A stretch of DNA of 64,000 nt from Plumapathes pennacea (lineage: Eukaryota; Cnidaria; Anthozoa; Antipatharia; Myriopathidae), in assembly GCA_964036295.1 (NCBI GenBank), contig OZ038463.1, forward strand, positions 16,665,069 through 16,729,068. The letters are read 5' to 3'. Of the stretch, positions 3,348 through 56,716 are shown piece after piece. The notes below the pieces were generated by a model that was given only the letters and a program-made list of their open reading frames with translations, was not told where the DNA came from and ran no database searches. Numbering within the stretch: position 1 is the stretch's first letter; each line of letters begins with the position of its first letter. The translations under genes were made by a program, and so were the position numbers.

Positions 3348-3404
3348 ACTTGCCTCCTATACAGTGTCCGTTGCTTCGCAACGGACCAGCAGAACACCAC
3401 GTGA

Positions 3405-4646: not shown

Positions 4647-4876
4647 GTAAGTTAGACCGAGTGACATTTTGAAGTTTGCGGGCTGCATTATACGGCAATC
4701 TTAAACTGCGTAGATTACTTGTCCTAACTTGTAGTACGCCTACGCCTTTGCACATATCTGGTATGTCTTCTATCATTGATAGCTTAATTATCTTGCCAAA
4801 ACAAAATTTGGAATTGTTGAACACAGACAAATTAAGAGGCAAACAGTTTTCTTGACTATTTAAATTGCCTTATCAG
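4647..4876 (+). other. Probable 5' UTR intron of gene A
   Basis: A consensus donor GTAAGT at 4647 and an acceptor ending TTATCAG at 4876 bracket 230 bp upstream of the gene A start codon. Gene B keeps both sites (GTAAGT at 35219, TTATCAG ending 35463), and the intervening sequence is recognisably homologous. This suggests a non-coding first exon ending at 4646 and a promoter upstream of about 4600. Inference from splice signals and conservation only. Confidence 0.5.
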
Positions 4877-4887
4877 AAGATGCTGTG

Positions 4888-5185
4888 ATGAGAGAAAATA
4901 ACCAAGGAAGCAACTTAGAAACAGATGGCATCGCACACGAAGAGACACGTAATGCCAGAAGAAGTGACCTTACAACCATGGCTGACGTGAAAACCGACCA
5001 CAACAGTCACACCACAGATGATTTGGTAACAGACGGCAATGACAATGAAGATACAGGAAAGGGTAATTTCCACAGAGTAGCGTTGAAGAGCGATAACTGT
5101 GTAACAACAAGAGGTCCATCTGGTGCTGAGTGTGCATTTTTTGTACAACCACCCAGCAACTGGTCCCAAACACTGCCAATCCCAG
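4888..5185 (+). CDS. Gene A exon 1: acidic N-terminal leader
   Basis: Starts at ATG 4888 and ends in phase 1 at a GTAATT donor. It encodes about 99 residues rich in Asp/Asn/Thr (TTDDLVTDGNDNEDTG), with no signal peptide or membrane segment, probably disordered. The start is supported by gene B, whose ATG aligns at 35475 while flanking codons differ. A micro-ORF ATG CTG TGA at 4880 overlaps the start as TGATG. Confidence 0.75.
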
Positions 5186-8100
5186 GTAATTCTAGTATGC
5201 CACAATGCCATGACAGTAACCACAACAATTGAGATTTATTTCTGTGCCTATGACCGTGATCGTGACCAAGGCCGCGTGTCTATGGCTGTGACGATGATGA
5301 TGACTGCTGGCTAGACTGAGTACTATAATGACGTCACTTGTTACTGTTACTATCAAAACTGATACTGAAATGATACTGGTGTTACCAGTTTTGTTATCAG
5401 TGCTTCTGGTGGAATTCACAGGGGGCCTGATGTAGTTTGGTTCCTTTATTCATAGTCTTGCGTGTTCGGACTTATATGTCAGAATAACATAATATGAACT
5501 GCGGATACTTATGTTAAGAGTGCTTTTTCAGTGCTATCTGCCTTTAACAGTACGTAACTGGGAGGGTCACTTTCAAAGCACTTTAATACTTTGGATTATT
5601 GCTCGCTTTGTGCTCCTGCTCATAAGTATAGGGACAAAGAGACGGAATTATATATATGATTGTGGTAGATATTAGACTTCAAATGTGCTTGAACACTTCA
5701 CATACGTACATATTGAACTGTACTTCAGGAAACCCCCAGAGTGACTCATCTTATGCGCCAAGCAAACCAAAAGCTGAACACAAGAAGAAGCGCATGGCGC
5801 AATCTGTGAAACAGGATCGCAAGGCGCAGACTCGGTATACAAACTTTCTGATGTGTGATGGCTACGTTGTGGAGATTGTAGGAGGAAAGCACTTCACGAC
5901 ACCAGATGGAGAGTTCGTAGAGATGAAGAGTGGAACACAGTACAAGATATTTGTGAAGAATATGCATCCCCGAGGTCAGTGCTAAATCATAATGCAATAC
6001 CGCTCGGAGCTAAGTGATAGTCTTAGGCTAAAAGAAGCTGATGTTTCCATTATTTTTGCCTGTGCAGCAAAGCACGCGATTATCACATGATTACCGTACC
6101 GCCCAATCAGCATGCACGATTTATGGCAGGAGAGCTTCACATCAACCAACTACTCAAGATGGCCTTCGCCATTTCTTGAATTCAAAAACGCTATAGAGAA
6201 ATGACCTGCGATTTCTGAGGAGAAAAAAATCAACGTTGGAACATGGCATGTGCAGGGAATCGGCTCTATTAAGTCTGATTCGGATGACACCGCGGAAATA
6301 CGGTTTTCAGCCGTGCGGTCACCTTACTTTTGAGTCAGCGGTTATTGCACAAAACCGTCGATTCAAGTGCAGATTTTGTAGTTAATTGTGCGCTCGTAAA
6401 CCTCAAGACTTAGCCAATAAGCTCAATGCTTGGACTCGATACTCAACTGTAAGTTAGATCAATGCATTCTCTATAACATAAGTTGTTCACAAGAAAAACG
6501 AGGCTTGCACACGATGTGAAATTTCACTTCGAATTATGAGAAGTTAGATAGCCATGGCGACAAACGCTGACCAACGGAAGTGACGTCAAGAACGTATTTC
6601 CGTTGTGCCGATTTAAACGCCGCTCTTCACATGCATCCAATCTATTGTAATGCAATTGGCTAGTTTATACTGATTTGCATTTAGTTTGGCACGTTTGAGG
6701 AGCTCTTTATTATAATGACTTGATTTTCCCAAGAAACCAAATCTAGAAACTGTACTCCACGATCGCAGCATTGTGACAATAATTTTTGGAAGTTATGTTT
6801 GTGGAACGCAATAGTTAATGATGGCCTATAATTCAATTTATTATTCAAAAAATACGTAGTATTGCATTGTGAATTTTGTAAAGGCCAAATTCAGCTCTAT
6901 GTTGATACCTATCCAACAAACCAAGTTGTCACTGTTTAAATCCATTCGGACTATTAACTTTTGAACGCTTTTTGAATTTAGGTTGTAACCTGGACATCTC
7001 TATCGATGGTTATGACATTGGTGGTTGGGTATTGGATGGACATCAGGAATTCAAAATTGAAAGACCGGCCTACGACAATCGCACGTTTACATTTTATCGA
7101 GTAAAGCAAGCGCCCGAAGGCTCTGGAATAGAGAAAGGCAAGGAGGAGAATGGCCTCGTTGAATGTGTCTTCACACCGGAATCTGATATTCCCGTGCTGG
7201 TCAGTACCCCTGAATTGTTTGAGCCGATACAAATTCAAATGCCACCCCACGCTACAGTGAAGGACGTTAAACATGAAGCACAAAGGCGCCTTGGTTCGGA
7301 GGAAGATGCTGATCAGGTTATGACTCAAGGAACACGTATGCTAGACAACAGGATCCAGTTAAGGTAAATAAAGTTTTGTTTGGCTGTCTTTTAAAAAGTG
7401 CAAATCCTAAAACTACGTTTGCCTACACTATAAGATCTTAACTTACTACGTTATTTTATGGAAATATTTTATTTCGCGGGTAAATTGTTGTAATTGTCAC
7501 CAGAGAGTTTTATCAGCTCTGCCAAAACAAAATGGTGTGGGACATTTGTGAACATCTATGTCGCTTTCCTTTGGTGACTGGTAATAGTTTAGATAGTACT
7601 CTGCTCCCTTTTGTACTCTTCCCCCCTTTTATTGTATTTCAAGTGTTGGTTTATCCCAGTCCAAGGGACAGGTTTCCGGTTTTTTAAAAAACAAAATGTC
7701 TCTACTTGTACGGCTAGGATGTATTTTACTTACTGTCATGTTATATAAACAACCAAAGTTGGGAGTAAATGTTCTGCCATGATAATTAAAAAGCAAACTG
7801 ACGGCTCCTGGCGTGAAATACCGCTCGACTCCGTTAATAAATGTTTCTCCATCCCTATGTAAAGTAAAAAGTAACTATATTTTTTATATGAGTACACAAA
7901 TTCATGGTCACGTGGGTGTACTTTAGTATGCTTTTGAATATAATAACTAGTCGAGCTTTTAGTAATGTATACGTATACCATGCAGATCTTGTGGAATGCA
8001 GTCGTCACAAGTCCTCCTCTTGCTAAAAAGTGAGCTGGAGATTACCATCCAAGCCTCCACGGGCCAAATATTTCCTGTGACTGTACACCCGGGTCGAGCT

Positions 8101-11100
8101 AAAGTTAAGGACGTCATGGAAAAGATAAAGCGTCACACTGATGTGCCTGTTAAGGACCAACAACTGTATCATGGAGAAACTTGCTTATCTGACAGGCCGT
8201 GGAAACCTCTTCCTGAAGCCCTGATTTTGATGGAAGACCCCGTACTAGCTGTAGATATCCCAGAATACCTAGAAATCAGCGTGCGACTCACAGAAGGGGA
8301 AGTGATTCCAATCAAGATAGACAAGTTGAAGACTTTGGTGGATCTACAAAGCAAGGTTCCCGCATGTGCTATCGTTGGAATAAAGATGCGAGTGTGGTTT
8401 ATTCATGAGGGAAAAAAGTTAAACCCTCTCAAAGACAGTGGGAGTCTAGTGAGTTATGGCCTGGAATCGGGTTCTGTCCTGGATGTGCAATTTGAAGTTG
8501 TCTTGATCTCTGTAACAGTTAGACTGCCAGATGGAATCGAAGCTAAACTGGTAGTGGATCCAAATGGAACGCTGAAAGATTTGCTGCAAAAAGTTTCATT
8601 TCATGGTGGCGAGGAGCTCGGAGAAATGGAGTATATTTTAAATGGCTCCACCCTACAATTGCAAGACACCACTGCTCGTTTAAAAGGTGAAGGCACACAT
8701 TATATTTCAACTTCCTGTTTTTCAAAAGTGTTCAAAACAAGACATATATTTATAAAAGATGGGGACAATAATATTTTTTTCTCACAGACCAATATTGCTT
8801 AGCTCTCGTTTTTGTTTCTTTTGCTTTTATTATTACAGAGTGTGGCGTGATAGACGGATCTATCTTGGAGATCAGGAAGAAAGGAAACAATTCTGATGAG
8901 TCACTTTTAGGACCATCCCCTGGTAAGCTTCATAATTCTGCTATTACAGACGGCAGCATTTCTGGCTCCTACTGTCGTCTTCCCCACCCCTCCCCGGTGA
9001 AGAAGCCGAAGTGTCCGCTGCTCGCTTGTCCTACAATTACGTCATACTCGTACTTCTTCTCTTCATTTCTTAAGATGATTTTTGTTTTTTCAGTTGGGCT
9101 GTTGCTTTTTAATTCTTAAGTTGTTCTTTAGTTCCCCTATTTTTTGTAATATAATTCAGTTCTGACAATACTCAAAAGGTTGGCGTTGAAAGTTCCATCA
9201 GTTTTTCCCAAATTGCCCTACGACAGAAAAAAAAATACGAGATGGTGTGCAGACCGGGAAGAGGAGGTTTCAAAAAAATGTGTACATTTCCATCTTAACC
9301 ATAACATGACGCATCCAACGCATAGAAGACACATACATATACCGAAATCTATTTGAAACCGGTATTGAAGAAAACAATTTCCCAACAGAACTCTTTATAT
9401 CAACTTTACATACGCATGTTAAACCTGTCTTGGAAACCAGTTATTTTAGAACACTGCTTTACAATAACAGATTTAGGTTTCGACTTACAGCACTCGCCAG
9501 ATGTATTTTTTCTAAGTAACATATATCAGGTAAAGCGTTGATATTGAATACCTTGATATCTGTAATTTTTATTGCGGGCTGAAAGAGCCGCGTGCACGTC
9601 TCTCAGTCTTGCAGTCAGGCTCAGGGACGTCAAGCATTGGCGGTGATGGTAAGGAGTGCGCTTTTGTGTGTAAATAATGATCCTGCGAATGCAAACCCAT
9701 GAATTACGTCCAAATTATTTATTATTCCATGTGTTATATAAGCGGTGTTCAAAATAACTACGCAATCAATACGACCGGGTAAAATGACGTCAACGAGAAC
9801 TCAGTAACTCTTATACTGTGCTCTTATATTGGTCACACAGAGAAAAACGACAGAATGCTCTTGTTTTGAAAATTAAGTTCATTTTTGGAATAACGCCAAT
9901 AAAAAAATGGGTTTAAACTATTCTACTATGGGTGCAGAATAATATTACATTAACTTAAGCGGTAATTGCATGCAAACTTTCTCTTTATCAAGCTTTGGAC
10001 TTACAGTTTTGCATTTGTTTGACAGAAGATTACGAGGTAATGGCTCCAGGTAAGCAGTGCTTGTGTGGAAATAGTTTCTTACGCATAACAAGTTAGCCTG
10101 CATTTGAACTTTGTTTAAACCTTGTTGCTGTCCATTGAAGTTGCGCATCAGAAGAACAATCACGACGGTAGAAAGTTCAGGCCACTTCAACATTGAATGG
10201 AAGGCGGAGGGTGTGTCTTTCAACTGAAACAGTAGAGAATTTACTGAAAAAGTGCGAATGTCCGAAAGACGTTTGTACTCATGGTTTTGCATACTTTTTT
10301 TCTTGACAGATGATTACGAGGTAATAGCTCCAGGTGAGCAGTGCCTGTGTGAAAACAGTTTCTTACCCATAACAAGTGTGTTTGAACTTTGTTTGCACCT
10401 TTTTACTGTGCATTGAATTGCGCATCAGAAAGACAACCACGACGGTAGAAAGTTCAGGCCACTTCAACTTTGAATGGGGGGAGTGGGGGGTGTCTTTCAA
10501 CAGAAACAGTAGATAATTTATTAAAAAAGTGCGAGTGTCCCAAGACTTTTGTCGGCTGATTGAAACTTTGGTACTCATAGTTTTGCACTTTTTTTGGCAG
10601 ATGATCACGAGGCTCCAATGATGACTTCAGCTGGTAAGCAGTGCTTGTGTGTAAATAGAATAACTGCACCAATAAAACAATTGGGTTTAATCTACTATGG
10701 GTGCAGAATTATATTACATTAACGAGCGGCAATTGCATGCGCACTATTTTTTATCAAGCTTTGATATAGTTTCAAATTTTTTTGACAGAAGATTACAAGG
10801 TTTCAGGTGGTTGTGTGGAAATAGTTTTTTACCCATAACAAGTGTGCTTGAATTTTGTTTACACCTTTTTACTGTGCATTGAAGTTGTGCATTGGAAAAA
10901 CAATCACAACGGTAGAAAGTTCAGGCCACTTCAACATTGAACAGGGGGAGAAGGGGGGGGGGGGGTTGTCTTTCAACTGAAACAGTAGAAAATTTACTAA
11001 AAAGGTGCGAAAGCAAGTCTTGAAACAGGCCTTATAGAACGGAACCTATGTTTCGGAGAAAAACATCAAGCCAAGCAATACAATACAATAAGTAATTAAT

Positions 11101-14100
11101 ATCAACAAAGATGACGAGTGATTTCTCTCCTGTCTTCCTTCTTTCTTGTCATCCTTCCTGCCCGTGCACCCGAATTTGGCGCCGTTTGCTTGCCTCACGA
11201 TTACGTCATGCTCGTGTACTTTGTTTCTCTTCATTTCTGAAGACGAGCTTGGTACGGTTCTTCCTGTGTGTCTTTTAACAAGACGGTGTATCATAAGGGC
11301 CGGGGTTTCAGTAAAATGTATAAACTCCCATATCATAGAAAAGACAAAATTTACAAAAAAAATATGTTTCGGGACTTTACAATTCTATTGTGCTTAATTT
11401 GCGCTGGTTACAAATTAGCATTTTCATGAGAAAAAAAATCGTTAACTCCTATATTGTGCTCTATTTTGCCACCAAGAGAAAAACGACAAAAGGCTCTTGT
11501 TTTGAAAATTACGTCTTCGATCCTGTGATACTGTTAACAAGATAATGTATGGATAAGGGGCTTTCGGTAAAATGTATAAAATAAATAATTACCATCATCG
11601 GAAAGACGCAACTTACAGATTGAACCCTGCTTGATATATAATATTCTGTCGCCTGTCTTGGGAACCAGTTCTTGTAGAATGATGTGGAATAACAAGTCCA
11701 GGTTTGAACCTACAACACTCACAAAATACCGTTTCGAGTCTTTATTACAATGTGTGCTGCTGTGTGTTCTTTATATAGGTTCAAAAAAAGGGATTACCGA
11801 GCGCCGCAAGCCTCCTGAATGTTCAAGCCTTATGTATGGCGGTAAGTACCAGTTGCTTTCGCCCTATATTTGATCAAAAACCCAAACGACCATGTACGAG
11901 GATATGCCCTTGTACTTTCTGTGGGAGTTCTGCCCGGAGTTTTGTCTTGTGTTCTCCCAATAAAGCACAATTTAGCTTTAAACCATTCCATTTGCCGCAA
12001 TGAGTAAAAATACATTCCATAAAGTAAGCGATACTATTCTTCCGGCTGCCTGCAATGTTCAAACATCAATCAGTTTCAAAAATTAAACTAAATCTTTTGC
12101 AATTGTACTTTATAAACCTTTGGGCCTGCGTCGGCCGCTTGTGGAGTTTACAAGTAACCATATTGTGATCCACAAACATTATATTATTGTGTTGAGACTT
12201 TTTAAAACTTTCTTGGGCTATTTTTTTGCGGTGCTGGTTAGAATTAGCATTTTTATCAGAGAAATGTGCTGTAGAAAAATGTGCTGCAGAGAAGTACAAA
12301 GTCTGAACTCGCCAAGCCTGTGCGTAACTCTGAAAAGCCTGATTTCCAATGCACCGTGCGAATCTTCTGCGTTGTGCATCTACCACTATGCTTTGCGTTG
12401 AAAGGCACTTGGGCCGCAATGCAGGCTGATTCGAAATCTTTTATGCTCAATGTCTTGCGCATGCAAGAAAGTGCTAACTTTAAAAAGTCAGTTAGGGTTT
12501 GCTATTTTTGTTTGACAGACCAATATGAAAACAGTGCTTGTGTGAAAATAGTTTCTTACCCATAATAAGTTAGTGTGTATTTGAACCTTGTTACACCTTT
12601 TTACTGTGCATTGAATTTGTGCATCAGAAGAACAATCACAACGGTAGAACTGTAACTTATAGAAAGAAACTGATGATTGGAGAAAGAACATCAATACAAT
12701 ACAACAAGAAACTTCAAGGAAGGTGACAACACACTGAATTCAACACTTGCAATGAATTGAATAAAGGAAAAGTGGGAAAACATTTCATAATTCTGCTATT
12801 ACCCTTGTCCACGTCATTTTCAACCTGGAGCAATCGGACCTTTTTGCTCTTTTTTAGAAACAGCAGAATTTTTTCTGGCTCCTACTGTCGTCTGCCCACC
12901 CATCCTGTGAAGAAGCCGAAATTGCCGCTGCTCGCTTGTCCCATGATTACGTCATAACTTCTCTTTATTTTTTAAGACTCAAGTTTAGTCTTTTTCCGTG
13001 GGGACGGTTGCTTTTTAACTCGTGGATACGCAAAGCGTAGAAATGAGTTATTATGAAGACTCAGATATGCAAATGAGTCACTCGCTCACTCACTTGGCTG
13101 ATAGCAGATCGATATCTAAACGTCATTTTGCATGCACCACAACCGAGTTCGAAGTCGCTACGACGAGGACATTCGGGTTTTCACGAACGCTTAACAAATA
13201 ATCAATTTGATTCAGAATTTACCGTTGCAAATAAGAAATGGCACACCCATGTGGGATAAGTACAAGTAGCAAATCGATGAAAATGTAACACAACCGTAAC
13301 TCGATCGGCAACACATGAATCAAATTAGTTTGTTCGGGAAAGGTCTAAAAAGGAAATGTTCATCAGTAGAATCAAATGGATTTTTGATTATAAACGATTT
13401 AGCAATCGGCTTGATCTAATTCAAAATATTGATCTTATTGGTATCTATCGCTCTAAATGGTTCAATCATTCAAGCACAATCAATCTGCTTGGTTCAATAC
13501 GCAGCAAAGTGAAACGCACAATCCAAATAAAAGCCAGATTGTATCAGAGGAAATAATACAGAGTAAAAGAACACAGCTACCTTAAAATTAAACGTTTGGG
13601 CAACATCTGCGAGGTCTTTCCGAGTTGCTTCTGCGTGTTAAGTATTTTTTAATCGCCATTCAGGCTTCGTTCAGGTTGTGACTTTACTACGAACCGACCC
13701 AAGCTATGCTTGTCCAAAGGTGACAAAATATTAAGTTTATATTTTTACACATCAAGAATTTTCTATTTATGTCAAGTTTCGGAGTTCTCGTGTCAACACT
13801 CATATTTACATGTCAAATTTATATTTTCATACATCAATACTTGTTTTATTCGTGTCAAGTTTTGGAATTTTCATAGCAAGTCATATTTTTATAGATCAAT
13901 ATGCTTTACTTATAACAAAAGTTGATATTTTTATGTCAAGTTATTTTTTACGTCAAATCGCCATTTTGTTTTACATCAAGTCGAGGATATTTTCATCAAT
14001 CAAGACATACACATTTTTATACATCGAGAAAGGAGAGTTGGGCTCTTGATCAGCCTTTCTTGCGCATGCGCTCTAAAGACCAGCTCCAAATCGAGCAATG

Positions 14101-17100
14101 ACAGCAATGACTAACCCTAACCCTAACTTATTCCAAATGTTGAGGATTTCTTTGATAATGTTGTGAGTCTATCTGCCATTGATGGGACTTTTACTTTGGT
14201 ACTCCTAACAAGAGTAGCCTTTGTTTTACCGAAATGTTGACTCAATCTTTTCTTCCAAGTCAAGTGCTACACGCAAAGGAAGGAGAAAAAGAATGGTGTG
14301 TGTTATACATTTGAAAAGAGTCGATTGCGTGACGAAGTACGTATTTCCCACGGTCGGCACGTCAAATTAATTCATACAGTCTGCCAAGCACGTTCTCAAA
14401 TTTAATACTCAAATTTTGAAGCTGGTCGGCCGTCGCAGTACGGGAAAAAAGGCACACTGATTTTCCAATTTTGAATCCATAGGCAGTACAATTAAATAGG
14501 CTTCCTGAGCAATTTGTTTTTACTCTGAACCCGCTCAAAACAGCATGATTTCTCCCAAAATCAAAACAAAACTTGAACGGTTTACTTTAAATTATACACG
14601 GGCTTCAGACCTAGTCATACTTCTAAGGGCTTGTGAACGATTCTCGCTGCAATCACCGCATGTCAGATTACAGCATTTGTTACAGTTTTAGTCTTGAAAG
14701 AAAAAATAAGACATCTGACTAAATCATTCAAGACTCCGAGTTCTGATTGCTCTGAGTGAATGGGGTAGCCGAAACTGGCGACAAAAGCGTATTAAAACAA
14801 TACTTCGAGGGAAAATGATCAGCATATAGATTTTAGTACATTCTTGAAGTGTTACATTTTAATACATTCTCTTTGAGTTACAAGATACGGGTAGAATATA
14901 TTTGTCACGGTGATTGTTCAATTTCCACTGACTAACCTTTGTTGCTTGTCCTTTCTGAATAAGTATCTGAGTTTAACACAAAACGGCATCTGAAGCTCCC
15001 GATTTGCTTTCAAGCACTGTTCCCTTTGCGGAGCCGTTTGTTCGGCACGCTTCCGTTCATGATGCTGTCGATTATAACATGTTTGTCGTCTTTTCTCTAG
15101 ACGTACTTGGCGCTGTTCGATCGTTTGACGATTTCGCCTTGCCCGTGCCTGTTCCCTTCTCTTTTGAAGACGAGCTTCGTGAGACCGTTCTGTTTCAAGT
15201 TTTCTAGTTTTCAAATTCATTTTCGTAAACGCAGTTACGTTCAATTATTGCTTCGTTCAAAATTTTTTTTTCTCCGAATGTCAGTAAAAACACTGGCGGA
15301 GACGCTAATCGGTAATTATTACGTCATTGCTATAGGCACCTGGCCTAAAAAGTCGTACCACAGACTGACAGACGAACATTAAATTTCGAGATGGCGACAC
15401 GCTTGGAGTCTTCAAATAAGGCGATTTTGCTGCATTAGCATCGTGATTATTACCCTCGCTTCGCTCGGGAATAAATAAATAAACATTTTATGTGCCCAAA
15501 ACACGTTTTTCTTGCAAAATGAATTAGGCTGCCCCTTCTTCTTTGGTGAGCAACCTCACTTCTTCCCAGTTTCCATTTAATTTGCACAAGAGTCCCATAT
15601 ATGTCTCCAAGGAATTCAAAGAGGAGGAGAGGTAGCTCTCCATTTTATAAAAGTTAACGAGAATATATTTTTATGTCATTCCTTGTCACGCTATATCCAC
15701 GAGTTGGCCCTTGGGGACCCTATGATTAGTTTCTCCAGCTCCTGTTGTCTGAATCAGTTCTAACGATACTCAACTGAAAGGTTACTTTGCATCACGAGGA
15801 GGTGGTGCGCTCTTCGACACTAAAAAAGAAAAATCCAGGATGGGGGTGCAGGCCTTCTTAACAACAACACTGGTGCATCCAACGCATTATAAAAACACAT
15901 AATTTATACCACAACCTATTTGAAATACATTGAAGAAATTTCCGACAGAACTCTTTACACGAACTTGAGCTATCTCAGTTGTTTTGTGTTCTGTCGCGTA
16001 TTAAAACCTGTCTTGGGAACCAGCTATTGTAGAACACTGCGGGATATTAACAGATTCAGGTTTCGACCTACAACACTCGCAAGATATTTTCCCAGTCATG
16101 GCCCGGGTTAAACGTCGGTCTTAGCATGCATCGAACTAAATTACATTTCGGGTCGACCGAAATTAATCCTCGAGCGTAAGCGAGGGTAATCATCACGACG
16201 CTAATTCTGTAGTATCGCGCTATTTGGAGACTCCAAGCGGGTCGCCATCTCGAAATCTAATGTTCGTGTGTCTGGCGTACGACCTCAAGGCGCGGTTTCT
16301 TGGCATAAGCGACTACAAAGGATTGGTCATGCGTGACCGACAGAAAGAAAAGCGATTTGAACGAAACAACAATATTGTACTGCATTCACGAACTGGAAAA
16401 CTGGAATTACAACAGTCTTGCAAAGCTCGTCTTCAAAAGAGAAGGGAACACGGGCAATCGTGGAAACGATCGAACAGTCAAAAAAGAAAAGACGACAATC
16501 ATGTAGGCGACAGCGTCGTGAACAGAATCGTGCCGATGAAACGACTCCGCAAAGAGAACAGCGCATGAATGCCGATCAAAAGTGCCATAAACAGAACACC
16601 GCTTGAAATTCAGGAGAAAAAGCGGGCTGAAAAACAGACTCCGCAAAAGAGACCGGAAAGAAACAGCGCATTAAAGCGAATCGGGAGTATTGAAAGCGGA
16701 CCAGCAGGCAATATTTTTTTAGCACAACAAAGTACAATCGCGACGCCGTTTTGTGTTAAACTCAGATAGTTATTCAGAAAGGACAAGCTACAAAGGTCAG
16801 TGGAAATCGAACAATCACCGTGACAATTGCAAGTACGCCGTCTATCTTGTGACCCGATCACTTCAAGAAAATATTAAATCTGCATGCTAATCATTTTCTC
16901 TCTAAGTATTGTTTTAATACCCTTTTGTCGCCAGTTTCGGCTAGCGGCGTATTCGCTCAGAGCAGTCGGAACCTGGGGTTTATGATTTAGTCAGATGTCA
17001 AGTTTCAAGTCACAATTCAAGTACTAAATGTTTGAGAATGTGCCCTGCAGACTGCATGAATTAGTTTGGCATGTCGACCGTGAGAAATACATACGGCGTC

Positions 17101-19086
17101 AGGCAATCGATTCTTTTTTCAACGCAAAAGTATAGCACACACCATATTGTTCTCCTTTATTTGCATGCAACACTTGACTTCTAAGAAATGATTGCGTCGA
17201 AACTTCCGTAAAGCAAAGGCTGCTCTTTTTGAGCAATACCAAAGCAGTAGTCCAACCAATGCCAGAGCGAGGGGGTATCTGCAATTATCGTATTTCTAGT
17301 TAAGTTAGCCCGGGGCGGGACGAGGAAGAGCATCGAACGATCTCCGACCGTCTGATAATCAGGCTATAGTTAAATTTGACTGTTGAGTCAAACGCCGAAC
17401 TTAAACCCGTCAAAACAAATTCAGAATACAAGAATCATTTTTTGGGTCAGCGGAAGTTTACATTTACGGTTTGACTCATGCTAAGACCGACGTTTGACCC
17501 AGAGTTGATCTTATGCCGTTCTAATCGACTCCTCCAGTCGATTAGATCGACTGAGTCAATTAAAACTCAATCAGTCGATCTGGGATAAACGTCGAACTTG
17601 TCATGTTCGACGCATGCTAAGATTGACGTTTAACCCGGGCCTGACATAGATTTGGTACAGCGTGTATATTACCTTGGTGTGCTTTTTTATTGGTTGACAG
17701 TGCAGCGTCGGACGCATGATGGGAACACGACCCGCCGCCCTTCCAGTAATGGTAAGCAGTGTGTTTGTGTTGTAAAGTTCCTGCCCACAACCAAGTTCAG
17801 GTTTGCCACACTTCTTCGCGTACATTGAACTTGTGCAAACCTATGAATAACGTTTAAACTATTTGAGAATGATTGATACTAAATTTATTCCATCTGGTAT
17901 ATATAAACGATATGGTATAAACGGTTATCAATATACTATTTTATATCTACACAATAAAAACGATACAGTAAAATTACTTTATTACTTTACAGCCAGCGAG
18001 AATACATATCCATAACAAGTGTGCTTGAACTTTGTTTACATCTTTTTGCTGTGCATTGAAGTTGTGCATCAGAAGAACAATCACATGCAACGGCAAGAAC
18101 TGCAACTTATAGAAAGGAACTAATGATTGGAGAAAATACAGCAATGCTAAATTATACAACAAGAAATGTCAACAACGGCGACAACACACTGAGTTTAATT
18201 ATTTGAATAATAAGGAAAGTGAGAAAACTCTTCATAATTATGCTATTACCCTTGTCCAGGTCATTTTAAACCTGGAACAAACGTACATTTTATTCCTTTA
18301 TAAAAACGGCAGCATTTCCTCTACTTTCATCTGTACATAATGAATGAAATATTACAGCAGCAAACAAACTCAGCGTATTTCCAATTGCGCCCCTTTTGTC
18401 TGGACAAGTCGAACGGTATCCATCTTTTGTTCTTGATCAGCTGACAGAAGCCAGTCAATTAATCTGACCATCACGCGAAATCATTGGACAGCAAACACCA
18501 ACATTTGAGCATTCTTTCGCTCTTGAAATTTGCCGTGGAACTAAAATTATTCACAGGACTCGCGCGATTAAGTCACATAAGCAAACCTGAGAGAAATTCC
18601 CGGAGAACAGTTCACAGCAGTGACTCACACGCTGTGCCTCCCAACAGTTACGTTCGACAATTAAACCTACCAATTTCCTGCTCGACTCACCTACATTCAG
18701 TCTTTCACAATACTATGAAAGCCAAACAGAAGTACAAAGTCTGAACTCGCCAACCCTGCTTGTAACACTGAAAAGCCCTGATTTCCAACGAACGGTGCGA
18801 GCTTCTGCATTACGCATCTACCATAATGCATTGTGTTTGCAAGGTGGTTCAAAACCTTTTTGGGGCTTAATGCGAGTCTTGTGACAAGTTAGTGTGTATT
18901 TGAACTTTTTTCACACCTTTTACTGAGTATTGAAGTTGTGCATTAGAAAAACAATCACGACAGTAGAAAGTTTAGGCCACTTCAACATTGAACGGGGGTA
19001 GTCTTTCAACTGAAACAGAGAATTTACTGAAAACGTGCGAGTGTCCCAAGACTATTGTCGGCTGATTGAAGCTTTGGTGCTCATAG

Positions 19087-19118
<32 letters not shown>

Positions 19119-22100
19119 TTGACAGATGAGAGATACAAGGTGATGCCTCAAATGGCTCAACGTAAGCATTGTTTGTGTGTGCATGATTTCTCTCCTGTCT
19201 TCCTTCTTTCTTGTCATCCTTCCTGCCAGTGCAAAAGCCGAATTTTGTGCTGTTTGCTTGTCTCATGGCTACGTCATGCTCGTGTTTGTTTCCGCTCTTC
19301 ATTTCTGAAGACGAGCTTGGTTTTTCCTGCGAGACTGTTTTGAAACTGTTTTAAAACAACTAAGATGAAGTATGGATAAAGGGGTTTCGGTAAAATATAA
19401 AAATTCTCATCAACACAAGAGCTAAAGTATTTATCAAGTAAGGTTCAATCTGTAGTTGTGTCCTTTCTATTACTCGTCAAAACAAGGTGAAAAAAGAAAT
19501 TATTTTAGTCGTGTAACGCGCACTTTGCAGGTCCGTTCTTAACTTCCACCTCCCTAATTAGTCGTGCGTAACTGCGTTCACGAAAATGAATTTGAAAAAT
19601 GGAAAGCCTGAAACACAACAGTCTCGCGAAGCTCTTCTTCAAAATAGAAGGGAACAGGCACGGGCAAGGACATATCGTCAACAATCGAACAGCGCCAAAT
19701 ACGTCTAGAGAAAAGACGACAAACATGTTATAACCGACAACATCATGAACGGAAGCGTGCCGAAGAAACGGCTCCGCAACGGGAACAGCGCTTGAAAGCA
19801 AATCGGGAGCTTCAGACGCTGTTTTGTGTTAAAATCAGATATTTATTCAGAAAGGACAAGCAACAAAGGTCAGTCAGTGAAAACCGAACAATCACCGTGA
19901 CAAATATATTCTATCCCGTATCTTGTGTAACTCGATCACTTCAAGAATGTATTAAAATCTGTATGCTGATCATTATTCCCTCGAAGTATTGTTTTAATAC
20001 GCTTCTGTCGCCAGTTTCGGCTATCGTATTCGCTCAAAGCAATCGGAACTTGGAGTCTTGAATGATTTAGTCAAATGTCTTACTTTTTCTTTCAAGACTA
20101 AAACTGTAACAAATGCTGTAATCAGAGACGCGGTGATTGCAGCGCGAATCGTTCACAAGCCCTTTAAAGTATGACTAGGTCTGAAGCCCGTGCATAATTT
20201 GAAGTTAACTGTTCAAGTTTTGTTTTGATTTTGGGAGAAATCATGCTGTTTTGAGCGGGTTCACATACAAAACAATTCGATCTCATTAAATATGCATGCC
20301 TGAGTCTGGTGCATGCAGTCCAGAGTAAAAAAAAAAAATTGCACAGGAAGTCTATTTAATTCTGCTGCCTATGGATTCAAAATTGGAAAATCAGTGTGCC
20401 TTTTTTCCCGTACTATGGCGGCCAACCAGCTTCAAAATTTAAGTATTAAATTTTGAGAATGTGCTTGACAGACTGTGTATGAATTGATTTGACGTGCCGA
20501 CCCACAGGCAGCCCATGCTCCGGGAGTATGTCTGTCTGTCACAGCTCTGAGTACGATTTTGCTGATATGTACGATAAAATAAAATTACGAAAAATATCAC
20601 GCTTTTACGTCTAGTAACTGTGTCCTGGATCTCTTTCGAACGCCTTGGAGCCGTTTTAGAGCTAATATAAAGATTTTTAAATTTATGCTCCCTCGCCTCC
20701 TGCACAAAAAACGACAAGGCTGGAAAGTAATTTCGACCGTACCTGACATTCGCTGATAAAATCATACTTCTCCAACATCAGTCAAGCTCAAACTCCGGCG
20801 ATCGCCACTGGATAAATGGGCTTCCCTTTGGCCAAGTTAGAAGGTCCAGTGAACATCCGTTCTTGAGAAATCGCGAGAAATATTACTAGATTCAAATCCT
20901 TCGAGGCTTGCCAACAACGAATTTGGACACGGGAAACCAACCGTCTCTCGAGTCTCGATCCGGTGAACGCAAACCGCGACACACACACCCGAGGGTGCGG
21001 AGAATTCGGCAGACCAAAACAAACCCCAGCCTTGTCCCGAACGTGAAAATTGACCTCACGTTTGATCTGAAGAGAACTTTTGGAGAGAACCATAGACTGA
21101 GAGAGCCCTAAAACACCTCCAAAGCGCTCGAAAGAGATCCAGGACACAATTACTAGACGTAAAAGCGTGATATTTTTCGTAATTTTATTTTATCGTACAT
21201 ATCAGCAAAATCGTACTCAGAGCTGTGACAGACAGACAGACCCCCGAAGCATTGGGAAATACGTACTTCGTCACGCAATTGACTCTTTTTTCAACGCAAA
21301 AGTAACGCAAAACACACCTTTCTTTTTTCCTCCTCCCTTTGCGTGTAGCACTTGACTTCGAAGAAAATATTGAGTCAACATTTCGGCAAAACAAAGGCTG
21401 CTCTTGTTGAGCAGTACGAAGTAAAAGTCCAATCAATGGCAGAGCGAGGAGGTATCTGCGATATCGTTTTTCTAGTAAAAGAAAGATATAACGCGTTCCC
21501 GTGTAATATAGCCTCATCTAAACAATTGGGAAGTTGGGAGAACACTCGAGTAGCGCCGGAAACCACTCGGCGGCCTCGTGGTTTCCTTGCGTTACTCTCG
21601 TGCTCTCCCAACTTCCCTCGTGTTTAGATGAGGCTATATTACACGGTTACGCGTTATATATTTCTTAATTATAACATAGTCACGATACAAGCCGCGCGCT
21701 AATTGGTCGAAAACCGTGGTTTGCCAGAGTATAAACCACGCTGACCCGTGGTTTATAAGTTATAAACCACGCTTACGTCATCCTCTGGCAAAAAAATAAT
21801 AATAATGCGAGAATGGAGTCTTGGCTTTAAGTGAAAGACACCGGCTAGTACGGTATGATCAAAGCAGTTCACCGTGAATCGGTAAACGTGACCTCATCAA
21901 AAAGCACTTCAACAATTTGGAGAGGAAAACACGTTCCAGAATAACTTTCAATATTCTAAAGTGTCAAAAATGGCTAAAATTTCATTTTGACTCCAGTTTC
22001 TTGCAAGAAATATGCCAATATTTATTGAACACCGCCGAAATTTGCAAAGATAACCTTAAAGGCGACAAAATATGATGATATTCAATGAAATACGCCAGAA

Positions 22101-25100
22101 TACCTAAATAATGCGCATTGCATGTTTTTCTTCATCGCCGAGGAAATCTGTCCATGTCAGTTATTTCCGCCAAAAGTGCTGTTTTATTCTAGAAATTAAC
22201 TGTAAAATATTGCGAGATTAACAAGAGTGCCTATGAAAATTAACCAGTACATGGATCTGCAATCGCAGAGCCATTTTTCTTTTCAAATACTGCCGAGTCA
22301 AGTTCCTATGTCGAATGAATATCTATGTCGAAGAACGGCCGCGGCACAAGTTTCTTGTCAGCGTCGTGGAAACTGGCGACTCACTTTAAGCACTGTCCCT
22401 AAGTACGGCATATTTGGGAGTCACAATTATATCAGTGAGTTGTTTGAAGTTGAATGCTTCAACAAGGAAGGAGAGGGCAAATCATTCAGTTGAAGAAGAT
22501 CAGGCGTGAGCAATCACTGAACTTGAACGGCAAAGACAGACAAGCAGACGTGTTTGTAGTGATGCAAGAGAAAGAATTTCCGACGATGTGACTGAAAAAA
22601 AAAAATGACTGAAGAATTTCGGACGGACTTAAAATGATTGTACTATGAGGTAGAGTCAAGAAATCGGTAAGTTTTCATTCACACAATTTTCGAGTCCCCC
22701 GTTGGAGCGTTTGTTGATTCCCTTGAAATTTGCATTTTATGCACTAGCCGACTGTATGATTTCACGTACTTTTAGTCCAAAGTTATACGGGAAAATACAA
22801 CAGACGGGCTGGTTGAAAAATTGAAGCGAAACTGCACTGACTTGGCAATTCGGACCGCCGAGCCTTTTAGGATAATCTGTTTTTTCATCGCTGTTAGCAT
22901 TCCAACATTTTTGATGAATAAAAACAGCTTTTTGTAAAACTGGAGAAGTTCTATGTTATAAAACAAATAGAACAGCTTCAAGTGTGATCCGTTCAGAAAT
23001 AAAGCTCTTAGCAAGTGCCGAGAGCACTTAAGAAGTAGGGAGAAACTCTCGCCTAACGGCTCGCGTTTCTCCCTACACTTCTTTCATGCTCTCGTCACTT
23101 GCTGTGGTGCTTTATTTCTGAACGGAGCACGCTTGAAGCTGTTCTATTTGTTAAAAATCGCACACAACTGTAAACCGGAGGCAGCATAATTTTGACTTCA
23201 TGGGCAAGATTGAATGGACCTGTACATAATAAATGAAATATTACAGCAGCAAACAACCTCAGCGTATAGCTTTTCCCACTTGCGGCCTTTTGGTCTGAAG
23301 GAGTGAAAAAAGAGCTCTAAGAGCTATTACTTTCAGTGAGAGGAGATCTGCGAGCAAACCAATTTTTAAGAAACTAGAAGTTCTAAATATCTATGAAATT
23401 GTTGATTTCCAACTTGGGGAATTGGCTTTTCGATACTCTGCAGATCAACTGCCCGACATTTTTTCCAGTTATTTTACGGATCTCACCTCACTTCATACTT
23501 ACGGCACTCGGTCCAAATCAAACAAGAATCTTTACTTACCGTTTCAAAATTTGAACTATGGAAAATTTGGCATCAAATACGCTTCTGCGAAAATATGGAA
23601 TTCTGTTCCAATAGGTTTAAAGAACTGTATTTCGCTAAAAGTTTTTAAACGTCTTTATAAGAAGCACATTATCTCTCAGACAACGCAGAGCTAGAGCTAT
23701 ATCCATAGCCTATGTATACACTTTCTTCGATACCTATAAAGCTACATATTCAGTCCTGTTAACTTACAGATCCTATTACCTACTTAATAAGTGTTACCTC
23801 ATTGTATAAACCTTTATTACCCTATTTATTTCATTTTGTAACCTACGCCGTTAGTAATTAAAATTTGTACGAGGGAACATGCGCCCAAAAACCCATAATG
23901 GGTTGTAGCATGCTTCCTCCACTTATCATCGGCTTAGAATTATCGTTTCTGTAAACAAATACCCTAAAAATAAGTGGAAATAAAAAACCTTTAGAACCTT
24001 TAGAACCTTTAGAGTCGAACGGTATCGGTAACGCTTTTGGTCTGGATCAGCTGATAGAAGCTTAAGTCAATCATGTCTCCCCGATTAGTAAGGCACATGT
24101 GCCCGGTTATAAAAATCCGAGAATTTAATAAAGCTGTTGATTGATTGACTGATTAGTTGCTAACACCAACGTTTGAGCATTGTTTCGCTCATAAAATTGC
24201 CGTGGAGCTAAAATATTCACAGAACTCGCACGATTACGCTGCATAAGCAAGCTTGAGAGAAATTTCCGGAAAACTTCACAGCAGCGACTGTCTCTCCTAA
24301 CGTTACGTTCGACATTGAAACCAACCAATTTCCTGCTCGACTCACCTACATTCAGTCTTTCACAATACCACAAAAGCCAAACGGAATACTCGAAGAAGTA
24401 ACCAATCGTAAGTTGCCAAGGTTCTGCTCGTAAACGCTAAAAAGCATGATTTCCAACGCACGTGGGCATCTACCACAATGCCTTGCGTTTGCAAGGCACT
24501 TGGGCCCGCACTGCAGGCTGGTTTAAAACCTTTAGGCCCAATGTCTTGCGTATGCAAAAAAAAAGTGTTAACTAAAGAAGTCAATTAGGGCTTGCTGCCT
24601 TGCTCGCTTCCTTCAGGCTCGTTCCCTGAATGATACTTAATTTCTTAATCAGGCTTTGATACTTTTTTTGAATTTGTTTAACAGACCAATATTAAAGCAG
24701 TGTTGTGTGTGAATAGTTTCTTACCCACAACAAGTGTGTTTGAACTTTGTTTACACCTTTTTGCTGTGCATTGAAGTTGTGCATCAGAAGAACAATCACA
24801 TGCAACGGCAGGAACTGCAACTTATAGAAAAGAACTGATGATTGGAGAAAAAACATTAATACTGAATTATACAACAAGAAATATCAACAACGGCGACAAC
24901 ACACTGAGTTCAATGAATTGAAAAGGGGAAAGTGAGAAAACTATTCATAATTATGCTATCACTCTTGTCCACGTCATTTCAACCTGGAACAAATGTACAT
25001 TTTTATTCCTTTATAAAAACGGCAGCATTTCCTCTACTTTCACCTGTCATTCTGCTGTTACCAGGACCCACGTTTCTGTCACTAGAACAAGCGACACAGT

Positions 25101-32708: not shown

Positions 32709-33056
32709 ATGGCGGCTGTGAACGACGGCGACCTCGCTTTTGTCAGTGACTACAGGAAACTTCTCTTGTTGCTGTCGAACCAGCTCAGTACAGAACAGTT
32801 AAAGAAACTGATATTTCTCTGTGGTGATTACATAGTCGAAAGGAAAGCCGAACAACTCCAGAGTGCACTGGATCTGTTCAAGACGCTCGAGCAACAGCAC
32901 GTTATTGGAAGCGGAAAGGTAGAGTTTTTGATCGAAATTCTCAATCAGATTGGAAGACAAGACCTCGCGTTGAAGGTTAACAACTACGTTAGCCAAATGA
33001 CAGCAACACGGGACCCAATAGCGGCTCAAAGTTACAGTCGACATGAAGGTTTGTAG
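32709..33056 (+). CDS. Death-effector-domain protein (single DED)
   Basis: ATG 32709 to TAG 33056, 115 residues, or spliced after 33048 at a phase-1 GTTTGT donor. Residues 14-97 form a full DED: DYRKLLLLLSNQLSTEQLKK (helices 1-2), LIFLCGDYI (helix 3 start), ALDLFKTLEQQHVIGSGKVE (helices 3-5), FLIEILNQIGRQDLALKVNN (helices 5-6). The R-x-D-L motif, hallmark of DEDs in FADD, caspase-8/10 and PEA-15, is R83-D85-L86. DEDs nucleate apoptotic or inflammatory assemblies in the cytoplasm. No caspase, death domain or second DED is visible downstream, so either this is a PEA-15-like DED-only protein or exon 1 of a longer gene. Kozak context (ATTATGG) is acceptable. Confidence 0.85.
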   Translation: MAAVNDGDLAFVSDYRKLLLLLSNQLSTEQLKKLIFLCGDYIVERKAEQLQSALDLFKTLEQQHVIGSGKVEFLIEILNQIGRQDLALKVNNYVSQMTATRDPIAAQSYSRHEGL

Positions 33057-53789: not shown

Positions 53790-53821
53790 TGCCGCAATGT
53801 CACTTTTAGGGCCATCCCCTG
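53790..53821 (+). pseudogene. Duplicated exon 5 end with donor
   Basis: GTCACTTTTAGGGCCATCCC and CTG then GTAAGC match the 3' end of gene A exon 5 and its donor, but the coding part upstream is absent. Confidence 0.5.
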
Positions 53822-54065
53822 GTAAGCTTCATAATTCTACTATTAGAAACGGCAGCATTTATAGCTCCTACTGTCGTCTTCCCCACCCCTCCCCCTGTGA
53901 AGAAGCCGAAGTTGCAGCTGCTCGCTTGTCCCACGATTACGTCATACTCGTACTTCTTCTCTTCATTTCTTAAGGTGATTTTTGTTTTTTTTCGACTTAC
54001 AGCACTCGTAAGACGTATTTTTCCTATTTAACATATATCAGGTAAACCGTTGATATCGAATACAG

Positions 54066-54098
54066 AGCAGCGTTGTACGTCAAACAGGGAAGGTGATG
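54066..54098 (+). CDS. Orphan tail cassette (33 nt)
   Basis: Acceptor AATACAG, donor GTAAGG, phase 1. It would encode EQRCTSNREGDG, and its intron matches the one after 9648. There is no proven parent transcript; it may belong to an extended gene B or be a relic. Confidence 0.4.
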
Positions 54099-54547
54099 GT
54101 AAGGAGTGTGCTTTTGTGTGTAACTAGCTTCCTGCCAATAACCAAGCTCAGTGTTTGTACTTTGCCACAATTCTTTACTGTACATTGAACTTGTGCAAAC
54201 TTATGAATTATGTCCAAACTATTTAATTGAAATTTAACATTTATATCATGTGTTATATAAATATGGTGTTCAAAATAACTACACAATCAAAACGATCGGG
54301 TAAAATGACGTCTTCACAACCTTCTGGTTACGAATTAGCATTTTCATGAGAGAAAATTCAGTAACTCTTATACTGTGCTCTATCTGGCCACCCAGAGAAA
54401 ACAACAGAATGCTCTTGTTTTAAAATTAGATTTTCATTTTTAGAATAACTACGCCAATAAACAATTGCATTGGGTTTAATCTACTATGCAGAATTATGGA
54501 CACTATTTTTTATCAAACTTTGGTATAGTTTTTCATTTGTTTGACAG

Positions 54548-54565
54548 AAGATTACGAGGTTCCAG
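54548..54565 (+). pseudogene. Decayed EDYEV cassette with AT donor
   Basis: TTTGACAG then codons for EDYEVP, followed by ATAAGCAG where GTAAGCAG is expected. One base has destroyed the donor. Confidence 0.5.
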
Positions 54566-54812
54566 ATAAGCAGTACTTGTGTGTAAAAATCGTTAACTCT
54601 TATATTGTGCTCCATTTAGCCATCCAGAGAAAAACAACTGAAGGCTCGTGTTTTGAAAATTACTTCTTCATTTTTAGAATAACTACGGCAATAGAAAAGT
54701 TGGGTTTAATCTACTATGGGTGCTGAATTATATTACATTAACTAGCGGCAACTCCATGCAAACGCTTTTATCAAGCTTTGGTACTTATATAGTTTGCATT
54801 TGTTTGAAAAAC

Positions 54813-54863
54813 GAGTATGACGAAATGTATTTCGGCTTCCAACGGGCAACTGCCTTAATTGGA
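54813..54863 (+). pseudogene. Decayed long cassette (DEYDEMYFGF)
   Basis: After TTTGAAAA (acceptor CAG lost) the frame reads DEYDEMYFGFQRATALIG in phase 1, then GAAAGCAG where GTAAGCAG is expected. Both splice sites are broken, yet the reading frame is clean. Confidence 0.4.
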
Positions 54864-54888
54864 AAGCAGTGCTTGCGTGTACATACCG

Positions 54889-55947
54889 TTTTTCTTACCC
54901 ATAACACGTGTATTTGAACTTTGTTTACACATTTTTACTGTGCATTGAAGTTATGCATTAGAAGAACAATCACGACGGCGGCAACTGCAACTGATAGAAA
55001 GGAACTGATAACTTGGAAAAAATATTAAAAAGAAGCAATACAGCAAGTAATATCAACAAACGTGAAAAGTAACACACTTGGAGTAACACTTGCAGGGGAA
55101 GCGGTGAAAACTCTAACGATCAATATTCCTCTACTTTCCCCTGTCATTCTGTTGTTACCAAGGCCTTCGTCAGGACAAGCGGCAAGGTACCCTAATTTTT
55201 TTCTTAATAACCGCAACTTTTCCGATCCCGGCTGTCTTCTGTTCTGCCCATACAAAAAGCAAATTTGGCCGCACTGCTCGCTTGTCAACGAGCTTTTTTT
55301 TTCTTTCGTAGGACTGTTAACAAGATGGTATAGCCAGTAAGACTAAGAGGGTTGCTATAAAATGTATAAATTCCAACCATGCCAGAAAAGACACAGATAC
55401 ACATTAACCCTACATGATATCTAATTGCTCAGTATTTTTATCACGTGTTTAAACCTGTCTTGGAAACTAGTTCTTGTAGAATGATGTGGAATAACCAATT
55501 CAGATTTGGTCGCAAAGACCGAGAGCTCGCTTTTTTCCTTCCTGTCTTCCTGCAAAAGCCGAATTCCACTGCGGTATGTCTCACGATTTACGTCATGCTC
55601 GTGCTTGTTTCTCTTCATTTCTGAAGACGAGCTTGGTGACTTCCTGTGAGACTGTTAACAAGATGATGACTGTATGGATAAGGGGCTTTCGGTAAAATGT
55701 ATAAAATAACTAATTACCATCATCGGAAAAACACAACTTACAGATTGAGCCCTACTTGATATATAATAGCTCTGTATTTTGTTGCCTGTCTTGGGAACCA
55801 GTTCTTGTAGAATGATGTGGAATAACAAATCCACAAAATACCGTTTCTAGTTTTTATATTAATCCCATGTGTGCTGCTATGTGTTCTTTATAGATTCAAC
55901 AAAAAAAAAGGATTACCGGCGGGCGCCTCAAACCTTACAAAATGTTG
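54889..55947 (+). repeat. 1.06-kb segment, tandem copy B
   Basis: See copy A. It ends inside a decayed copy of cassette 6. Confidence 0.75.
55894..55946 (+). pseudogene. Decayed cassette 6 copy: acceptor kept, donor lost
   Basis: TTTATAG acceptor is intact and the body reads DSTKKKDYRRAPQTLQNVAC, but the GTAAGT donor is replaced by unrelated sequence at the end of the 1.06-kb duplication. Confidence 0.45.
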
Positions 55948-56716
55948 CATGCCAAACAATTGTCCTCTTAAGAATAACATTTGCCTCGACACGGCTGAGT
56001 GCACCTCACGCATGCGTATAATGAAATTTTGGCAGTTGTTAGTCGTGGTCACACTACACACTTTTCCCCAGGGAAATACGATTTGCCGCGAGGGTGAAAT
56101 GTGAAAAAAAAAAAAAAATCCCAAGAGAAAGTGGTTGTTTACCATTCGAAAGAAAGTTCCGGTTTGTCGCTCGGGAAAAACGGGACTACCTTCTCAAACG
56201 ATCTGTTCATTCTGAAAAATTTCTGGTAAATCAAACCGAAAACCGTTTTCTTTGAATGGTAAACAACCAGTATCTCGGGTTTCATTTTCCCAGGTAATGA
56301 AAGTCACACCGGTCACACCGTAATCAGATTGACCTCGGGGTGTCGCTTTGTTTCCCACGAGTATATGCAATAACATGTCCGATAATCAACGTGAAGAGTT
56401 TACTTCTTATTTGCTTTTACTTTTTGTCACTTTATTTAAACAAGCAAGGCGATCAAGAACACTGCTATTGCACTGTTCGATTGCTCGGAGACGTCGACGA
56501 AGACAACAAGCGGGATTATTTCGATTTATGACCATTTTGGCTTGGCAAGTAGGGCACCGGTCCACGCGAATCCACCGCATAAATCACCACTACCAGGAGT
56601 AATCCGTAAAGAAGCCAGAATATCTTACTTGTTAATGCCAATAGTCTGTTCACTATAAGCATTCTTCCCGCCTTCTCTTTTCGACTTTTTGTCGCCGTTC
56701 GGCCTTGCTTCCACAG

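Follow-up and report, generated by a model that had tools for sequence, protein, structure and literature searches.

A putative frame-neutral array of duplicated micro-exons in a DED/ubiquitin-like gene of Plumapathes pennacea

The window, by which we mean the whole 64,000-nucleotide stretch of Plumapathes pennacea DNA analysed here, carries a gene (gene A) whose first coding exon, encoding a DED, begins 1.3 kb before the window and lies outside it (G000:C2:16663745-16664084). The second coding exon (4877..5185, forward strand, as are all features below) joins this DED exon in frame in phase 1. ATG 4888, taken as the start codon in the preliminary description, is therefore internal, and that assignment was wrong. 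A beta domain starts in the exon at 5729..5974 (translation and alignment with coral relatives), and its remainder together with the start of the first ubiquitin-like domain is encoded at 6982..7363 (translation, Pfam search and coral alignment). The bulk of the ubiquitin-like stretch lies at 7986..8686 (translation and Pfam matches), and the final exon before the array, 8839..8922, ends in phase 1. Beyond the array are a first constant exon with the motif WRAGGTTLQG (25376..25544; genome search and coral alignment) and the last coding exon including the stop (26029..26110; translation).

A profile search with gene A plus the upstream exon gave a clear N-terminal DED (PF01335, E 8e-22). A Pfam search of the 653-residue protein read from ATG 4888 found tandem ubiquitin-like domains (PF00240, 3.5e-12, three stretches) and also matched Rad60-SLD (PF11976, 8e-6), and the C-terminus fits a conserved W(R/K)xGxTTLQG...LRLVAR pattern in the alignment with coral relatives and in the genome search. 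A search of a phage collection returned four weak matches (E ~9). The tail lengths proposed earlier, 653-750 aa, are reproduced when counting from ATG 4888; since the DED exon outside the window joins in frame, the true range is 770-867 aa, without and with all eight cassettes respectively.

Between 8922 and 25376 the intron of gene A contains eight candidate micro-exons of 18-63 nt, falling into about three families. Five belong to type I: cassette 2 (10026..10049, 24 nt, EDYEVMAP), cassette 3 (10310..10333, 24 nt, DDYEVIAP), cassette 4 (10601..10633, 33 nt, DDHEAPMMTSA), cassette 5 (10789..10806, 18 nt, EDYKVS, with a weak donor) and cassette 8 (19126..19161, 36 nt, DERYKVMPQMAQ, also with a weak donor). 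Cassettes 1 (9607..9648, 42 nt) and 7 (17701..17751, 51 nt) are of type II and cassette 6 (11779..11841, 63 nt) is of type III. The 5' border of cassette 1 is ambiguous, as AGs that place its start at 9607, 9619 and 9625 give exons of 42, 30 and 24 nt, all multiples of three, and one that places it at 9615 gives 34 nt. All eight have AG/GT ends, a length divisible by three, phase 1 at both ends and an open gene frame, with stops in the two other frames in four and six of the eight, and each of the 256 cassette subsets keeps the frame through to a single final stop. The preliminary description, which had placed eight such exons between gene A exon 5 and the 3' exons, all symmetric and freely combinable, thus held on each of these points. 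Together the cassettes contribute at most 97 of the 867 residues.

We compared the array with chance expectation in a splice-site scan (thresholds of acceptor 2, donor 2 and sum 8 bits; four settings were run in all), using approximate weights that fit the ordinary exons of gene A poorly, four of six constitutive acceptors scoring below 2. The sense strand of the 16.5 kb intron yielded 10 candidates, of which eight were divisible by three and open in phase 1; those among the gene A cassettes are not independent events, representing about three families. The antisense strand gave five candidates, three divisible by three and none open. In 40 dinucleotide shuffles the means were 1.3 candidates, 0.45 divisible by three and 0.15 open, with a maximum of two open, and a control sequence of 153,486 bases (both strands counted) gave 20, 6 and 4. 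The shuffles, antisense strand and control sequence hence disfavour a chance origin of the array. Six of the eight open candidates have the borders originally proposed, while 9619-9648 is a short form of the first exon and 10310-10375 a long form of the third; cassette 5 (10789-10806) fell below this setting with a sum of 6.9.

The five live-looking type I copies (24, 24, 33, 18 and 36 nt) have homologous splice sites and differ in length by whole codons only. Because the splice sites are shared, three or so independent length changes must be counted, all of them multiples of three. By contrast, gaps divisible by three make up 13/75 in the duplicated introns and 10/42 in introns between genes A and B. 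A point on the other side is that, between genes B and A, 6/10 of the exon gaps are multiples of three. The family had been described as four near-tandem copies; the duplication itself stands, but the live-looking copies number five, that at 19126 belonging with them, and two more at 12519..12534 and 24685..24700 keep the acceptor and have lost the donor. Duplication of the intervening introns was borne out by aligned copies of exon plus flanking intron. Cassettes 2 and 3 are identical at 22 of 24 positions and the introns of that pair at 87%. We looked for higher conservation of cassettes than of the surrounding introns and did not find it, and hence see no evidence of selection on the peptides.

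Gene B, a tandem paralog, has its DED exon at 32709..33048 (3' border set by comparison with gene A) and, at 53799..55950, a counterpart to part of the array in which splice sites have been lost; in its 18-nt type I copy (54548-54565) AT follows where GT is expected. Paralog C, 5 Mb away, is 53% identical to gene A in the ubiquitin-like exon and carries in the same intron four other phase-1 cassettes (45, 45, 36 and 48 nt) that form two duplicated pairs. All 16 cassette subsets stay open in an exon model that requires linking exons of 67 nt and 44 nt, picked partly for keeping the frame. One copy is without its AG, and the next AG still yields an in-frame exon. The splice scan, with its approximate weights, returned no candidates for this array at any of the four settings, and the gene A cassettes had no BLASTN match in paralog C. 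Within the 10 kb examined, paralog D has one broken type I copy instead of an array and no ubiquitin-like exon, and it is probably a deletion derivative. Paralog E likewise has no ubiquitin-like exon within 10 kb; an 84-nt exon is duplicated there, and the loosest scan found two open candidates divisible by three versus 0.15 in shuffles. Candidates of 24 and 66 nt in paralog E were left uncounted, being open in two frames, as were short candidates of 84, 25 and 42 nt in paralog F (7.5 Mb), not all of which are multiples of three.

A protein search returned 13 matches, all named as stony corals, and a coral tail as query brought up no proteins beyond those already found. The coral proteins (e.g. 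P0001, P0002, P0004, P0005, P0015 and P0016) share the domain order of gene A, in which a DED and a beta domain precede the ubiquitin-like domains and a variable tail leads to the TTLQG C-terminus; the DED is missing from the P0003 model and the C-terminus from those of P0006, P0007, P0019 and P0020. We compared the tails of 17 of the 27 proteins fetched, which are known as protein models only. Five tails contain exact internal repeats, counting those of 7 residues or longer other than poly-E, and 12 have none. P0015 carries three copies of ASIPRDELRN(T/S)DVI, P0016 and P0018 one each, and SVRNERECRF is present in P0016 and P0020 and absent from P0015 and P0018. On visual inspection we recognised none of the gene A cassette peptides among the coral tails, whose peptides thus have no visible counterpart in gene A. 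As neither paralog C nor the coral tails matched the gene A cassettes, conservation between loci is one of layout only.

At the level of genomic sequence there is good support for the view that the micro-exons of gene A are coding and frame-neutral and have multiplied by copying of an exon together with its flanking intron. The reading we prefer, with a probability of roughly 70%, is that they form a frame-neutral cassette array adding short motifs to the disordered tail of a DED/ubiquitin-like adaptor. We place gene A in a coral-type family whose adaptor-like products carry a DED, a beta domain and a run of ubiquitin-like domains, then a disordered tail and finally the conserved C-terminus. 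Disorder of gene A's own tail is presumed; residues 664-792 of the P0001 tail have pLDDT <50. Cassettes would enter the mRNA by splicing, their inclusion may differ between transcripts, and each one spliced in would contribute one short tail peptide such as (E/D)DYEV(M/I)AP. These peptides may serve as short binding motifs, possibly tyrosine-based, in a protein that may act in immune or death signalling. A cassette would be born when an exon is copied with its flanking introns, would shift in length by whole codons and would die when a splice site is lost.

Constitutive inclusion would look identical in genomic DNA, and so many tail variants from the one locus are possible only. A considerably less probable alternative is that all or nearly all cassettes are present in every transcript, giving a constant, repeat-rich tail grown by exon duplication and no isoform diversity. 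All DNA-level observations fit it equally well, coral protein models carry several repeats simultaneously, and the cassettes at 10026, 10310 and 10601 outscore most ordinary gene A exons by the approximate weights of the scan. Against this, constitutive inclusion is generally difficult for exons as short as 18-24 nt, cassettes 5 and 8 have donor scores of just 2.2 and 2.3 bits by the same weights, and related Acropora models differ in the presence of one 10-residue piece, though they may be different genes or species and not isoforms. It is very unlikely that the repeats are intronic duplications whose splice-like sites are never used, exon 8839-8922 joining 25376: in its favour, exon and intron parts are about equally conserved and splice sites are clearly missing from several copies, but it would leave unexplained the frame statistics, the length changes by whole codons and the distinct array that paralog C has. 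Least credible is an origin of the cassettes by exonisation of a dispersed mobile element. Pieces of the introns following the exons (window 10172-10260 and 11857-11940) are indeed dispersed genome-wide, but such an origin of the exons is unsupported among the matches listed: in a first genome search (40 of 339 candidates scored) 33 of 44 lay outside the gene cluster, all 33 with the intron piece only, and every exon-covering match listed lay inside it, and in a second (40 of 150 scored; gene B copies, known from a separate comparison, are absent among the matches listed) 39 of 40 covered the intron piece only, the remaining one being the query.

Extending the cassette-array reading, we suggest tentatively that in corals and their kin one intron of the whole adaptor family is a fast-turnover nursery of frame-neutral micro-exons, its set differing by paralog and species, with combinatorial splicing giving cells or individuals different motif tails while the immune or death-signalling core stays constant. 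That paralog C has another array in the corresponding intron suggests repeated invention, and the arrays of gene A and its paralogs offer a clean system in which to study how exons are born, are constrained by frame and die. Were splicing combinatorial, this would be a new route to vary an intracellular signalling protein in an animal without adaptive immunity.

Symmetric micro-exon arrays are already known elsewhere, in the MEGs and SmVAL6 of Schistosoma. In the accessible text of PMC4350168 and PMC4015677, MEGs have tiny symmetrical exons whose skipping preserves the frame, micro-exons account for most, or as much as 75%, of the coding sequence, and the products have a signal peptide; PMC4350168 confines MEGs to platyhelminths. 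Gene A resembles them, as far as they are described there, in its very small exons (8/8 symmetric, phase 1-1, multiples of three), but differs in that its micro-exons supply at most a minor share of a DED/ubiquitin-like protein that begins with a DED, and, indirectly, in that its protein matches are named as stony corals. The closest layout is that of SmVAL6, in which ordinary exons for conserved motifs are followed by small alternatively spliced exons; the accessible part of PMC4015677 does not mention for SmVAL6 a constant end beyond the small exons such as gene A has. SmVAL6 is, however, a venom-allergen-like protein with observed isoforms, whereas gene A is known here from genomic DNA alone. 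Exons 4-8 of fast skeletal troponin T (TNNT3) are tiny, multiples of three and combinatorial, but unlike the tail array of gene A they lie in the N-terminal part of a muscle protein. They are treated as an alternatively spliced group within one gene in the accessible text of PMC2447309. The neural microexon programme is reported, in the portion available of PMC8797185, to originate in bilaterians with the eMIC domain. A literature search, mostly without subscription papers, apparently found no paper on the present array. Frame-neutral micro-exon arrays making variable proteins have been described, in the sources as available, for schistosomes, and here one lies in a coral-type DED/ubiquitin-like gene.

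Cnidarian DED / TRADD-N fusions show lineage-specific expansions in which the DED is joined to variable partners, and polyubiquitin fusions are named for this TRADD-N clade (PMC8195603, accessible text); they are described there as domain shuffling, unlike the micro-exon array of gene A. The structural model of P0001 (not gene A) had linear tetra-ubiquitin 7yui_A as its best match, with E 1.3e-19 and TM 0.16/0.31.

The intron of gene A between 8922 and 25376 (gene A being a plus-strand gene with DED, beta domain, ubiquitin-like and tail regions) was proposed in the preliminary description to hold eight small exons of 18-63 nt. All eight are present, each bounded by AG and GT, as cassettes 1 to 8 at 9607-9648, 10026-10049, 10310-10333, 10601-10633, 10789-10806, 11779-11841, 17701-17751 and 19126-19161 (42, 24, 24, 33, 18, 63, 51 and 36 nt). 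As had also been claimed, every length is a multiple of three and every cassette is open on phase-1 entry; stops are found in the remaining two frames of 4/8 and 6/8 cassettes. The further claim that any combination keeps the frame held for all 256 subsets, each of which runs to a single final stop. For cassette 1 there are four possible acceptors, three of which yield lengths divisible by three.

The protein range of 653-750 aa given earlier is correct as computed from the ATG at 4888, but the true protein is longer, 770 aa without cassettes and 867 aa with all eight. A DED exon at C2:16663745-16664084 (genomic coordinates of the same contig), starting 1.3 kb upstream of the window, joins the exon at 4877 in phase 1, hence ATG 4888 is internal. 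The DED gives a Pfam match of 8e-22 and is followed by the beta domain, to which no Pfam name was assigned, the ubiquitin-like domains, the array and then the conserved C-terminal part. For the Oculina relative P0001, a structure model of modest overall confidence (mean 60.4, pTM 0.41) shows the DED and the ubiquitin-like region with confidence; its tail, residues 664-792, has pLDDT below 50. Among solved structures the model matches linear tetra-ubiquitin chains best (E 1.3e-19, although TM is 0.16 and 0.31), and OASL and ISG15 match too, through their tandem ubiquitin-like domains.

We scanned the 16.5 kb array intron for splice sites using simple weights. The strictest setting gave three candidate exons, all of them multiples of three and open in phase 1, with none on the antisense strand and a shuffle mean of 0.05. 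At a looser setting eight of ten candidates were of this kind, again with none antisense, while 40 shuffles gave a mean of 0.15 (maximum 2) and control sequence (153,486 bases, both strands counted) gave four. Six of the eight have the borders already described, one is a shorter cassette 1 and one a longer cassette 3; cassette 5 fell below threshold at this setting. Given that cassette copies are related, these eight amount to some three independent families, not to eight independent events. Counting against the scan, four of the six ordinary acceptors in gene A miss its limit, and no candidate emerged from the paralog C array at any of four settings.

Type I comprises the live exons at 10026, 10310, 10601, 10789 and 19126, copies at 12519 and 24685 that have lost their donors, and two further copies: a similar donor-less one in paralog D and one in the tandem neighbour gene B, in which GT has changed to AT. 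Type II consists of 9607, 17701 and a gene B copy near 54066, and type III of 11779 and two gene B copies. Length differences among the five live type I exons are all multiples of three, resting on some three independent changes, whereas only 13 of 75 gaps in the duplicated introns (six copies compared in overlapping pairs) and 10 of 42 between introns of A and B are so. This difference points to frame constraint; the conservation comparison, in which exon identity was about equal to intron identity, lends it no support.

The ubiquitin-like exon is found at three sites: in gene A, in gene B (86%) and in paralog C (53%), which lies at a distance of about 5 Mb. Gene B covers 32709-61600 and C2:16731546-16732257 and includes exons for the DED, the ubiquitin-like domains and the C-terminus; it has an in-frame TGA in its counterpart of exon 5729-5974, has lost cassette splice sites, and looks like a copy in decay. 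The 3' exons of paralog C are open, and the same intron holds four phase-1 cassettes of its own (45, 45, 36 and 48 nt, in two pairs that arose by duplication) with no BLASTN match to those of gene A. All 16 subsets are open in a model that includes 67-nt and 44-nt linking exons picked partly for frame-keeping. One copy has lost its old acceptor, and the next AG 3' gives a shorter exon with the frame kept. This separate array is the strongest sign that the family employs the intron for such cassettes more than once. Paralog D (C2:16621001-16631000) resembles gene A at about 94% across 4039-7786, with no ubiquitin-like exon or live array in the stretch. Paralog E (C2:16609001-16619000) likewise has no ubiquitin-like exon found in its stretch, and a duplicated 84-nt exon candidate there is followed in both copies by GC, not GT.

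An obvious mobile-element origin of the cassettes is disfavoured, as the exon-covering type I matches, among those listed, all lie within the gene cluster. Elsewhere in the 290 Mb genome fall 33 of the 44 type I matches listed (40 of 339 candidates scored), all 33 reaching the intron piece only. For type III, 39 of the 40 matches listed (40 of 150 candidates scored) are restricted to the intron piece after the exon; the gene B copies, known from a separate comparison, are absent among them. Two short intron pieces 3' of cassettes, 10172-10260 and 11857-11940, are dispersed genome-wide repeats. Mutually similar Arg/Gln/Glu-rich open frames at 2856-3356 (-), 14918-15244 (-), 16167-16568 (+) and 19648-20061 (+) are presumably pieces of one mobile element, which may be Helitron-like. 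An open frame at 23299-23694 (+) looks like the terminal part of a reverse transcriptase region from a retroelement. Long inverted repeats at 14172-15239 and 19567-21443 lie on either side of cassettes 7 and 8. They have several arms of up to 307 nt with 83-97% complementarity; if paired in pre-mRNA, they would place both cassettes in one loop and might influence their skipping.

From DNA and protein sequence, the cassette array of gene A is likely on the evidence of frame, scan, kinship and paralog C, and the modular-tail interpretation stands to that extent; alternative use of the cassettes is possible. For the whole statement, a frame-neutral array with putative alternative use, we estimate a probability of roughly 0.7. 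The DED and ubiquitin-like core would stay constant, and the short peptides of the probably disordered tail behind it would, as cassettes, be either switched in and out or accumulated. Peptides such as EDYEVMAP and DDYEVIAP, with a tyrosine between acidic and hydrophobic residues, may be binding motifs. The DED, together with the expansions of cnidarian DED proteins described in the portion of PMC8195603 consulted, suggests a role in immune or death signalling. SmVAL6 and the schistosome micro-exon genes have the closest layout, as far as the consulted parts of PMC4015677 and PMC4350168 describe them, but on those parts gene A differs in the micro-exon share of its coding sequence and so falls outside that group. 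Unusual features are the protein context and the presence of differing arrays in two paralogs at the same position, accompanied by tails that vary across related species.

All 13 matches of the first protein search carry stony coral names, hence the label 'coral-type'; relatives occur in Oculina, Montipora, Stylophora, Acropora and Pocillopora. Tails were examined in 17 of the 27 proteins fetched, some models being truncated or fused, and exact repeats of at least seven residues (poly-E excluded) were found in five (P0002, P0003, P0004, P0015 and P0023) and not in the other 12. Among the Acropora models, ASIPRDELRN(T/S)DVI occurs three times in P0015 and once each in P0016 and P0018; P0016 and P0020 contain SVRNERECRF, which P0015 and P0018 lack. 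A third search, with the P0015 tail as query, gave ten matches, none new. Several relative records are titled isoform X2 to X4 (database names), with as many as 16 sequences in their clusters. P0014 (Montipora foliosa) has a glycosyltransferase-type region C-terminal to the DED (Pfam); GT4 domains with cnidarian TRADD-N proteins are described in the consulted part of PMC8195603. In P0026 and P0027, distant relatives from other sources, the beta domain seems by eye to be joined to near-standard ubiquitin, and P0026 has a GATTLQG motif as well, so the origin of the beta domain and ubiquitin core may long predate corals.
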